Assembly: GCF_016461955.1 (NCBI RefSeq) | Contig: NZ_JADMNM010000002.1 | Span: forward strand, 1 to 64,000 | Origin: Qipengyuania sp. YIM B01966 | Lineage (GTDB): Bacteria; Pseudomonadota; Alphaproteobacteria; Sphingomonadales; Sphingomonadaceae | DNA length: 64,000 bases | Reading direction: 5' to 3' | Part shown: in pieces, positions 8,918 to 48,617 of the stretch | Layout: the number at the start of each line of letters is the position of its first letter | How positions within the stretch are numbered: the stretch's first letter is position 1 | Program-made: the position numbers and the translations under genes | The notes under the pieces: generated by a model | What the model was told of the DNA's origin: nothing | What the model saw: the letters and a program-made list of their open reading frames with translations, nothing else | The model's database searches: none

Positions 8918-9427
8918 ATGCGCGCCTTTCCGATCATCGCCGGCCTTGGCGTCACGCTCACGTTGCTGGCGTGCGCGCCGGAGCAGACCGCGGAGCAAAA
9001 AGCCGCCGCCGATGCGGCCGACATTGCTGCGGTCGAGCGGGCGCAGCAGGTGCCGCCTGAACCGATCAACCCGCAGACCATCGCTTTTGCCGATATCGAG
9101 AAGCACGATCTGTTTGGAGCGTCTTGCGCGTTCGTGCCCGAGACATCAGGCACCGATCCTGTCCTTCTGGCGATGGAGCGGGCCGGCTGGATGAAGATCA
9201 AGGGCGAGATGATCCGCTTCGCCCCTGACGCAGGCAGCGCCGCGCTGCCGCTGGGTGCGCGCGGGCGCTATACCGGGGCGAAATACGCCTTCACGCTCGA
9301 TATTGCGGAGGGCGAGGGGCGGCAGAGCGGCAGCGAAACGACCGATTTCCCCGCTCGGCTGGTGGTCAGCGATGAGCGCGACCAGGTCGCTTACGAGGCG
9401 AACGGCACCGCGCAGTGCGGCAGTTGA
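8918..9427 (+). CDS. small lipoprotein of unknown function
   Basis: The 169-residue protein has a lipoprotein signal peptide with lipobox LLAC (Cys at about residue 19), so it is probably membrane-anchored in the periplasm. After the Cys comes a charged Ala/Glu-rich spacer, then a compact domain with segments FGASCAFVPE and YTGAKYAFTLDIAEGEG and a near-terminal Cys. I do not recognise the family. The start is supported by GGGAG 7-8 nt upstream. It stands alone between mutL and the convergent MaoC gene. Confidence 0.8.
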   Translation: MRAFPIIAGLGVTLTLLACAPEQTAEQKAAADAADIAAVERAQQVPPEPINPQTIAFADIEKHDLFGASCAFVPETSGTDPVLLAMERAGWMKIKGEMIRFAPDAGSAALPLGARGRYTGAKYAFTLDIAEGEGRQSGSETTDFPARLVVSDERDQVAYEANGTAQCGS

Positions 9428-46641: not shown

Positions 46642-47412
46642 ATGGCAACCGAGCCGCTGACCATCACCACCGAGGCCGGACACAAGCTGTCGGGCTCGCT
46701 CGAACTTCCCGAGGGCGAGGTGCGCGGCTGTGCGCTGTTTGCCCATTGCTTCACCTGCACCAAGCAGAGCCGGGCCGCCGTCGCCCTGTCCCGGGCGCTG
46801 GCGGCGCGCGGGATGGCAACCTTGCGGTTCGATTTCACCGGCCTTGGCGGGAGCGAGGGCGAGTTCGGCCGCGCCGGGTTCACCACCGATGTCGCCGATC
46901 TGGTGGCCGCCGCACAGCATTTGCACGCGCGCTTTGCCGGGCCGCTGCTGCTGGTCGGGCATAGCCTCGGCGGGGCGGCGGTGCTCGCGGCGGCCGACGA
47001 TATTGGCGGCGACCGGATTGGCGCGATCGCCACCATCGGCGCCCCGGCAGAGGTGCATCACGTGCTCGGCAATCTGAAGGGGGATGTCGAGGCGATCACC
47101 CGGCAGGGCGAAGCCGAGGTGACGATTGGCGGCCGGCCGTTCTCGATCAGCCGCGAATTCGTCGAGCGCGCCGAACAGACTGATCTGCTGGGCGAAGTGG
47201 CGCGGCTGCGCAAACCGCTGATGATCCTCCACGCGCCGACCGATACGCAGGTCGGGATCGAGAATGCCGAGGCGCTGTTCAAGGCGGCGCGCCATCCCAA
47301 GAGCTTCGTCAGCCTCGATCGTGCCGATCATCTGCTGACCGATGGGGAAGACGCCGATTTTGCTGCGGCGGTCATAGCTGCATGGGCCGGCCGCTACGTC
47401 GCTGTCGCGTGA
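46642..47412 (+). CDS. alpha/beta hydrolase
   Basis: The 256-residue hydrolase has the elbow motif LLVGHSLGGAAVLAAADDIG, the acid in ILHAPTDTQVGIENA and His in SLDRADHLLTD. Similar proteins are often fused to an OsmC domain; here the frame stops before one, so this is a stand-alone version of that family. The substrate is unknown. The ATG at 46642 is used. It is divergent from the serine hydrolase. Confidence 0.88.
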   Translation: MATEPLTITTEAGHKLSGSLELPEGEVRGCALFAHCFTCTKQSRAAVALSRALAARGMATLRFDFTGLGGSEGEFGRAGFTTDVADLVAAAQHLHARFAGPLLLVGHSLGGAAVLAAADDIGGDRIGAIATIGAPAEVHHVLGNLKGDVEAITRQGEAEVTIGGRPFSISREFVERAEQTDLLGEVARLRKPLMILHAPTDTQVGIENAEALFKAARHPKSFVSLDRADHLLTDGEDADFAAAVIAAWAGRYVAVA

Positions 47413-47510
47413 TTTGTTGCCACCGGGCCGGCATGGCGCTATGGCCGCGCCTGCGGACCGGGCCCCTCTGGCACGGCATGGAGTGTTTCCCTGCCTTGTG
47501 ATGTCGGACC

Positions 47511-47589
47511 GCATCGGATTGCACCGATGCTGCTGGCCCGACGCGTTCCCCCCATTCTCGCGCAGCTGGCCGGCATCGGTGCGTCCGAT
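47511..47589 (+). promoter_or_regulatory. leader with mutually exclusive hairpins before terC
   Basis: Four segments can pair alternately: A GCATCGG (47511-47517), B CACCGATGC (47522-47530), C GCATCGGTG (47573-47581) and D CCGAT (47585-47589). A:B gives 7 bp, B:C gives 9 bp and C:D gives 5 bp, and neighbouring pairs exclude each other. The leader lies in the 209-bp gap before a TerC gene, and the ribosome site GGGAG follows about 20 nt after D. I do not find the conserved core of the yybP-ykoY manganese riboswitch. Confidence 0.5.
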
Positions 47590-47621
47590 CGAATTCAACG
47601 AGTTCGGCAGGGAGCTGCGCG

Positions 47622-48617
47622 ATGGAATTTCTGATGGTCGACTGGCTGGGAACGCCGGTCTGGTTCTGGCTGGCCTTCGCCGGGCTGGTCTTTGGTCTCA
47701 CCGCATTCGACCTTGGTATCCTGCACAAGGAAGACCGCGAGATGGGCGTGGCCGAAAGCCTCAAGCTGTCGGCCTTCTACATCGCCGTGGCGCTCGCTTT
47801 CGGGGCATGGATCTGGGTCGAGCGCGGGGCCGATCTGGGCATGAAATATTATACCGGCTTCTTCATCGAGAAGGCGCTGTCGATCGACAATGTGTTTGTT
47901 ATCTCCCTGATCTTCACCTTCTTTGCCATCCCGCCGAAATACCAATACCGCGCGCTCTTGTGGGGCATCCTGGCGGTGATCGTGCTGCGCGGGATCATGA
48001 TCGCGCTGGGCGCGGCGCTGGTGCAGGAATTTTACTGGACGCTGTATCTGTTCGCTGCCTTCCTGATTGCCACCGGCATCAAGATGCTGATGAGCGGCGA
48101 CCATGCGCCCGATCTCGCCTCGAACAAGGTAGTGCAGTGGATATCGCGGCGGATGCGGGTAACGCCCGAGCTCCACGCGCAGCATTTCTTCGTCCGCGTA
48201 CCGAGCGAGAAGACCGGCAAGATGGTGCTGGCGGCCACCCCGCTGTTCCTGGCGTTGGTCGTCATCAACCTGGCCGACCTGGTGTTCGCGATCGATTCGG
48301 TGCCGGCGATCTTCGCGATCACGACGGACACCTTCATCGTCTATACCTCGAACATCATGGCGATCCTCGGCCTGCGCGCGCTCTATTTCGCGCTCGCGGC
48401 GATGGTGCACAGGTTCGAATATCTGAAATATGCGCTGGCGCTGGTGTTGATCTTCATCGGCTCGAAAATCTTTATCGGCGACTTCCTGATGCCCGGCGGC
48501 AAGGTGCCGCCGCTATTCAGCCTCGGCGTGACCTTCGCGCTGATCACGGGCGGTATTCTGGTGTCGCTGTGGAAGACGCGCGGGCAGGGGGAGGTGCCAC
48601 ATCCACCGCCCGGCTAG
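47622..48617 (+). CDS. TerC/Alx-family membrane protein
   Basis: The 331-residue integral membrane protein has eight or nine segments and two TerC motifs: EKALSIDNVFVISLIF, and the repeated VFAIDSVPAIFAIT with its acidic residue in the membrane. Alx/TerC relatives affect manganese export and redox or metallation homeostasis. Its start follows GGGAG by 9 nt. A structured leader precedes it. It is convergent with parE (6 bp). Confidence 0.93.
   Translation: MEFLMVDWLGTPVWFWLAFAGLVFGLTAFDLGILHKEDREMGVAESLKLSAFYIAVALAFGAWIWVERGADLGMKYYTGFFIEKALSIDNVFVISLIFTFFAIPPKYQYRALLWGILAVIVLRGIMIALGAALVQEFYWTLYLFAAFLIATGIKMLMSGDHAPDLASNKVVQWISRRMRVTPELHAQHFFVRVPSEKTGKMVLAATPLFLALVVINLADLVFAIDSVPAIFAITTDTFIVYTSNIMAILGLRALYFALAAMVHRFEYLKYALALVLIFIGSKIFIGDFLMPGGKVPPLFSLGVTFALITGGILVSLWKTRGQGEVPHPPPG

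Follow-up and report, generated by a model that had tools for sequence, protein, structure and literature searches.

The window analysed here, 64,000 nucleotides of Qipengyuania sp. YIM B01966, carries on its forward strand a gene for an integral membrane protein of the TerC family (47622-48617, 331 amino acids; PF03741, E 1.4e-50), the identity that a preliminary description of the locus had assigned to it. A Shine-Dalgarno site, AGGGAG, can be read at 47609-47614. An Rfam search, which the same description had advised, showed that the leader on this strand matches the terC RNA family RF03067 (47450-47516; cmscan 56.5 bits, gathering score 39.9, E 4e-07). This is the sole Rfam match at E ≤ 1 within 47300-47700 and the one RF03067 match of the genome, and the TerC gene, by its profile match, lies directly downstream of it. 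The RNA comprises a helix P1, an internal loop (GCCCCUCUG/GAUG), a variable helix P2 and a 3′ tail, GCAUCG. In the alignment to RF03067 the core GGGCCCCUCUG ... GAUG is present together with P1 and P2, with non-standard pairs flagged at two columns. The functional unit spans approximately 47450 to 47622, since the terC RNA belongs to it. Two further RNAs of the window lie on the reverse strand, a cobalamin riboswitch (RF00174, 386-628, 93.2 bits) and a tRNA gene (Rfam RF00005, 861-933).

The yybP-ykoY element and the E. coli alx and mntP leaders also precede TerC-family genes. The preliminary description could not match the leader to yybP-ykoY and suspected a different regulator. Indeed, the manganese riboswitch yybP-ykoY (RF00080) had no match at E ≤ 0.001 in the genome and was absent at E ≤ 1 from 47300-47700, and we rejected it as a candidate; the leader matches RF03067. 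The suspicion was right in that the leader falls into another Rfam family than yybP-ykoY, but that family is an existing one. The likeness to it extends to P1, P2, the conserved GGGCCCCUCUG/GAUG and the place upstream of terC. Rfam's 59-position model, however, ends inside the first of the four segments discussed below (the tail GCAUCG is the start of this segment, which overlaps it) and lacks the 2-bp P1 extension, the hairpin, the duplex and the ribosome-site mask seen here; in relatives, genes besides terC also follow the RNA. Of 396 genomes sampled from the order, 192 contain the terC RNA, as do 40 of 289 sampled from the class; Caulobacter vibrioides, a laboratory host, also carries it. 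Our literature search, with most subscription journals outside its reach, returned no functional account of the RNA among the papers listed.

P1 reaches two pairs beyond the Rfam model, into segment 1. Its 5′ strand, GCGGACCGG (47453-47461), includes these 2 bp (GC) and an internal A·A mismatch; the last two bases of its 3′ strand, UCGGACCGC (47504-47512), are the first two of segment 1. Among 146 distinct motifs found with a search pattern, which itself fixed the 3′ side of the extension, the two pairs were C-G in 124 and G-C in 125; among 88 motifs found with a covariance model they were C-G in 75 and G-C in 67, with A-U at the second pair in 4. The extension was unformed (G·G, C·C) in 22 and 20 of the former and in 11 and 12 of the latter. 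The inner position opposite A was A·A, G·A or C·A in 72, 67 and 5 of the 146 motifs and in 51, 31 and 3 of the 88. We dropped this mismatch as a conserved sensor feature, because class-level loci have U-A there in 29 of 40, and it is hence no feature of the family. The two leader types (our first two sets and the class-level one) differ inside P1 too, with a mismatch in one and mostly U-A in the other.

The preliminary description had placed a ladder of four segments within 47413-47621, able to pair 1:2, 2:3 or 3:4. All four do lie inside this interval, the three pairings are possible, and the arrangement exceeds chance. The segments, GCATCGG (47511-47517), CACCGATGC (47522-47530), GCATCGGTG (47573-47581) and CCGAT (47585-47589), give a 7-bp hairpin 1:2, 9 bp for 2:3 (10 with the next base) and 5 bp for 3:4. 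Segments 1 and 4 also pair (ATCGGA, 47513-47518, with TCCGAT, 47584-47589), so that 1:4 and 2:3 combine into a single interrupted duplex of 16 bp (6 + 10 bp) between 47513-47530 and 47573-47589. Hairpin 1:2 and this duplex are mutually exclusive, because some bases are common to both. At the RNA level, segment 1 (GCAUCGG) pairs with segment 2 in the hairpin or, from its A on, with segment 4 in the duplex; CCGAUGC of segment 2 (47524-47530) is the 3′ arm of hairpin 1:2 (47511-47530) or the partner of segment 3; and segments 3 and 4 together, GCAUCGGUGCGUCCGAU (47573-47589), are the complement of the 1-loop-2 unit (47513-47518 with 47584-47589, 47521-47530 with 47573-47582). Between the two strands a C-rich linker (47531-47572) forms the loop of the duplex and is a possible Rho site.

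A 7-bp hairpin with its 3′ arm complemented again downstream appeared in 5 of 5000 dinucleotide-preserving shuffles, a lone 7-bp hairpin in 675 of 5000 and a lone 9-nt inverted repeat in 795 of 5000. The ladder is remarkable as a combination, while a single hairpin or a single repeat is unremarkable. The same test across the window was positive in 5 of 1276 overlapping forward-strand tiles (3 at the terC leader, 2 near 9150-9400) and in none on the other strand. The sole other forward-strand ladder site, at about 9150-9409, is inside or next to an open reading frame (8918-9427). The folding energy of 47413-47640 was ordinary (z = -0.72), so the significance of the ladder rests on its arrangement and not on stability.

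Covariation in homologous leaders had been proposed as a check, and it bore out the exclusive pairing: the relatives retain both 1:2 and 2:3, and the duplex covaries. The first leader set was obtained from 158 motif hits, of which 154 had a called gene and 126 a leader of 55-150 nt. A held-out set, collected with a covariance model, went from 100 loci to 58 (leader 55-150 nt, less than 0.85 similarity to the first set) and to 53 after mutual de-duplication. Since linker lengths differ, we used swap tests and an anchored column test in place of one MAFFT alignment of all leaders. All 7 bp of hairpin 1:2 could form in 118 of the 126 leaders and in 39 of the 53 held out, with the loop length picked for best fit; pair 7 was G-C in 68, A-U in 40, G-U in 18 and A-C in 0 of the 126. 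For the duplex, the 24-nt 1-2 unit was paired with its own leader and with those of relatives, and row and column means were removed. Own leaders of the first set paired at a mean of -27.2 kcal/mol and swapped ones at -20.2, a residual of -6.9 against -1.24 for the best of 5000 permutations. In the 53 held-out leaders the residual was -7.49, the best permutation gave -1.94, and none of 10000 reached the native value. Two controls at n = 201 were flat, with z 1.5 for coding and z -0.9 for upstream sequence, and the opposite strand gave a weaker signal than the transcribed one (-6.04 versus -7.31, n = 201).

In the anchored column test the partner is fixed by an anchor, CGAT, rather than by complementarity; the anchor is present in 64 of the 126 leaders (63 distinct) and in 35 of the 53 held out. 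Pairs 7-11 each beat all 2000 permutations over the 63 distinct combinations of the first set, and pairs 12-16 did not. In the 35 held-out leaders, pairs 7 and 8 were matched by 0 of 2000, pair 9 by 2 and pair 14 by 30, with pairs 10-13 not significant at 5%. We also aligned the leaders most like the window's. A first alignment held 24 hand-chosen leaders of the 34 listed, with ten omitted, including one (L021) that lacks the duplex; it was therefore repeated with all 34 (33 distinct). In the latter, 89.6% of duplex cells were paired, compared with 85.7 in shuffles and with 92.1% in the earlier alignment; two-sided changes occurred at 5 pairs (27 cells), and the covariation score was matched by 0 of 500 shuffles. 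A measure of further pair types was not above shuffles in either alignment (123/500 with 24 leaders, 327/500 with 34). For hairpin 1:2, every cell in the 34 near relatives was paired and changes were one-sided only, with segment 1 nearly fixed, so this alignment is no test of 1:2 covariation. The 3:4 pairing of the preliminary description can form in the 24 near relatives (95% of cells), but it showed no two-sided change there and is without independent support.

The modelled energies of the two folds differed by a mean of 0.1 and -0.3 kcal/mol in the native leaders of the two sets (s.d. about 6), and by +9.7 and +8.6 kcal/mol when the leader behind the hairpin was shuffled. In the window the modelled states lie at -56.3 and -56.2; counting P1 and P2 as well favours the duplex state by about 6 kcal/mol. 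The folds came within 5 kcal/mol of each other in 67 of 126 and 30 of 53 leaders. Near-equal mean energies, as modelled here, are a requirement of a bistable switch, although many single leaders lean one way. Taken together, the comparison of leaders shows that hairpin 1:2 and the long-range pairing of the 1-loop-2 unit with segments 3-4 share bases and are each maintained, and the terC leader, with two mutually exclusive folds both kept in relatives, is very probably an on/off switch.

How might such a switch act on the gene? A further helix, 4:5 (47584-47607), is predicted from the local fold and from covariation in relatives: a hairpin joins 47589-47596 to 47600-47607 and, below it, UCC (47584-47586) faces GGG of the Shine-Dalgarno site (47610-47612). 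The helix links the duplex strand with the Shine-Dalgarno region; leaders L136 and L246 give an example, GCUCgAUCGAU...AUCGAUgGAGC. It covaries: the residual was -2.01 for 61 leaders, where the best permutation reached -1.05, and -2.64 for 33, where it reached -1.41. Locally folded, 58 of the 61 and 28 of the 33 leaders have two or more of four Shine-Dalgarno bases paired, and just 35 and 17, respectively, have the anchor paired too. The window has in addition a candidate mask of its own, UCGCGCAGCU (47558-47567), complementary to 47613-47622, a stretch reaching from the last bases of the Shine-Dalgarno site to the first base of AUG. The unpaired fraction modelled for the window's Shine-Dalgarno site was 0.35 in the hairpin state and 0.66 in the duplex state, whereas its AUG was slightly less open in the duplex state (0.29 versus 0.40). 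Across leaders, the site in the hairpin state was more closed in native sequences than in shuffled ones (p 8e-5 for n = 126, p 0.083 for n = 53). Its opening in the duplex state was modest, +0.118 versus +0.076 in shuffles (p = 0.017, n = 126) and +0.144 versus +0.089 (p = 0.028, n = 53), and 22 of 126 and 9 of 53 leaders changed by more than 0.05 in the opposite direction. We favour, with moderate confidence, translational control by masking of the Shine-Dalgarno site. No intrinsic terminator (a G+C-rich hairpin with a U run) was found in 47300-47621; three terminator-like hits at 47665-47690 are inside the gene. The attenuator logic first proposed is therefore not supported in the sense of a transcription terminator. 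What survives of it is the switch itself, in which 1:2 and 2:3 are exclusive and both kept, with the evidence now pointing to the ribosome site as its output.

Our main reading, to which we give a probability of about 0.6, is that the terC RNA RF03067 with a relay expression platform controls translation of terC. Because P1 extends into segment 1, a stable P1 would take the outer two bases of hairpin 1:2 and leave the duplex intact. When a ligand or condition stabilizes P1, its outer GC pairs would claim the first two bases of segment 1; with 1:2 weakened in this way, segments 1 and 2 would be free to pair with 3 and 4, and the duplex would draw strand 4 off segment 5 and the Shine-Dalgarno site, which would open for TerC to be made. 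With P1 loose, 1:2 would form first during transcription and strand 4 would pair with segment 5 and the Shine-Dalgarno site, keeping translation low. The signal, guessed from the gene neighbours, is probably alkaline pH or an ion. Leaders of another design may bear on the direction of the switch. From the 40 class-level loci we took 14 as a short-leader set, selecting leaders of 35-62 nt that lack the GCAUCG tail and discarding near-duplicates. The optimal duplex formed with the 22 nt ahead of the start codon engaged two or more of the five final P1 bases in 12 of these 14 leaders, which are 37-58 nt long; this count has no control, and the swap test gave 292/10000. The short-leader forms may use P1's own strand as the mask, and under either design the gene would be opened once P1 forms.

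The polarity of this scheme is itself deduced rather than measured, and the same RNA and folds could work in reverse, with the ligand-bound terC RNA favouring 1:2 and the gene off. Five of the seven 1:2 pairs are compatible with the extended P1, and the P1 extension is unformed in about one motif in seven. We nevertheless consider the reversed polarity rather unlikely, as the GC of segment 1 is common to the P1 extension and to 1:2, P1 formation in short-leader relatives would free the ribosome site, and genes for efflux and antiport are usually induced by their signal. Somewhat less probable still is Rho-dependent termination, in which the C-rich linker would load Rho and be exposed to a different degree in the two folds. 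The linkers of 184 relatives are indeed rich in C and poor in G (C 0.418, G 0.229, C > G in 165) compared with the first 150 nt of the genes (C 0.314, G 0.304), and the window's leader lacks an intrinsic terminator. However, in most examples the linker stays mostly unpaired in either state, as the loop of the duplex or free beside the hairpin, which offers no clear contrast, and Rho control alone would not need a 4:5 helix covarying into the Shine-Dalgarno region. Since the linkers are C-rich, a contribution of Rho beside translational control is possible.

Could the repeats be DNA sites, protein-binding palindromes or a cruciform, rather than RNA? They are perfect inverted repeats with GATCGATC-like cores, and at held-out anchored pairs 10-11 A-C outnumbers G-U (11 to 6). 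Against this, G-U exceeds A-C in the first and the held-out set, by 20 to 8 and 11 to 1 at pairs 7-9 and by 30 to 15 and 17 to 12 when pairs 7-11 are taken together, the opposite strand pairs less well, and the repeats hold set positions relative to the terC RNA and the Shine-Dalgarno site. On the G-U excess and the weaker opposite-strand pairing we rejected a DNA-level palindrome, which now seems highly improbable. That the terC RNA alone matters and the ladder is chance or simple stability would fit the ordinary folding of the whole region (z -0.72), but with 5 of 5000 shuffles and with conservation in two leader sets and flat swap controls this has a negligible likelihood, and we rejected pure chance as the origin of the ladder on the shuffle count.

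The relay platform has a limited spread. Two subsets of leaders picked by title, 15 from 17 listed ids and 9 from 10 once filtered and de-duplicated, were drawn from the first set and are not independent of the n = 126 test. The duplex holds in the 15 titled Caulobacter, Brevundimonas, Hyphomonadaceae, Rhodospirillaceae, Micavibrio and others (0/10000) and is weak in the 9 titled Rhodobacterales (60/10000). A class-level sample, meant as a third duplex replicate, comprised 40 loci, some with miscalled gene starts; the same filter left 12. In these 12 leaders, from other alphaproteobacterial families, no duplex was detected (residual +0.60; 7512 of 10000 permutations as good or better). There the terC RNA is often near the gene without the tail: GCAUCG is absent in 11 of the 12 usable leaders and in 38 of the 40 loci, so the duplex claim is limited to tailed leaders. 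Among leaders headed by TerC, the own partner ranked in the top tenth in 11 of 32, compared with 127 of 201 overall. The platform is thus a property of leaders with the tail, though not of every one of these, and not of the terC RNA at large.

The genes behind the RNA suggest what it may serve. In 253 distinct leaders the called gene, which is not always the first, belonged to DUF465 in 101, TerC in 50, Bax1-I in 29, Zn-ribbon in 24, Usp in 7, NhaA in 5, beta carbonic anhydrase in 3 and Na/Ca exchanger in 2, with 32 other or uncertain, one of these an alpha carbonic anhydrase; families were assigned by BLAST clustering with Pfam-checked members. Past the 101 DUF465 genes, the first recognised gene within 900 nt was TerC in 41, NhaA in 29, Bax1-I in 6 and Zn-ribbon in 3, none of those families in 17, and the sequence was too short in 5. 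A small DUF465 gene thus separates the terC RNA from TerC at 41 loci and from NhaA at a further 29 (e.g. L151); none lies between the RNA and TerC in the window. At class level TerB and DUF4112 join the list, on one tested protein each. In L229, L245, L247, L263 and L269 the RNA precedes similar small genes, lipoprotein-like by reading, and the L229 protein has no Pfam match. Divergent, back-to-back pairs of terC RNAs, 96-132 nt apart, occur at G467:C2:1489503-1489712 (L279, L299) and similarly in G556:C9 and G555:C157. NhaA serves alkaline growth, and the TerC family includes E. coli Alx. TerC, NhaA, Bax1-I, the carbonic anhydrases and the Na/Ca exchanger suggest pH or ion homeostasis, and the switch perhaps serves alkaline or metal stress. 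The E. coli alx riboswitch is reported to respond to alkaline shock and manganese (PMC9603457).

The layout found here is that of a riboswitch, a conserved aptamer-like domain followed by a predicted expression platform with exclusive folds. Strand-exchange platforms of the general kind, in which exclusive helices set the pairing of the Shine-Dalgarno site, are familiar from riboswitches, and the terC leader resembles the translational ones in that exclusive helices would decide whether the ribosome site is paired. It differs in that a second complementary copy re-pairs the 1-loop-2 hairpin, setting local hairpins against one long duplex. The two-state element is genuine and attached to a known Rfam RNA; what is new is the description of its output stage and neighbours, not a new kind of system. 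More tentatively, the terC RNA might be the sensor of an alphaproteobacterial alkaline-pH or ion regulon, made up of TerC, NhaA, Bax1-I, alpha and beta carbonic anhydrase, the Na/Ca exchanger and Zn-ribbon proteins. It would then turn translation ON through two or more kinds of platform, among them a P1-strand mask in short leaders and the relay that exchanges hairpin for duplex. A covarying switch tells the experimenter which bases to mutate and which direction of change to expect, and the shared set of pH and ion genes narrows the candidate ligands to a handful.
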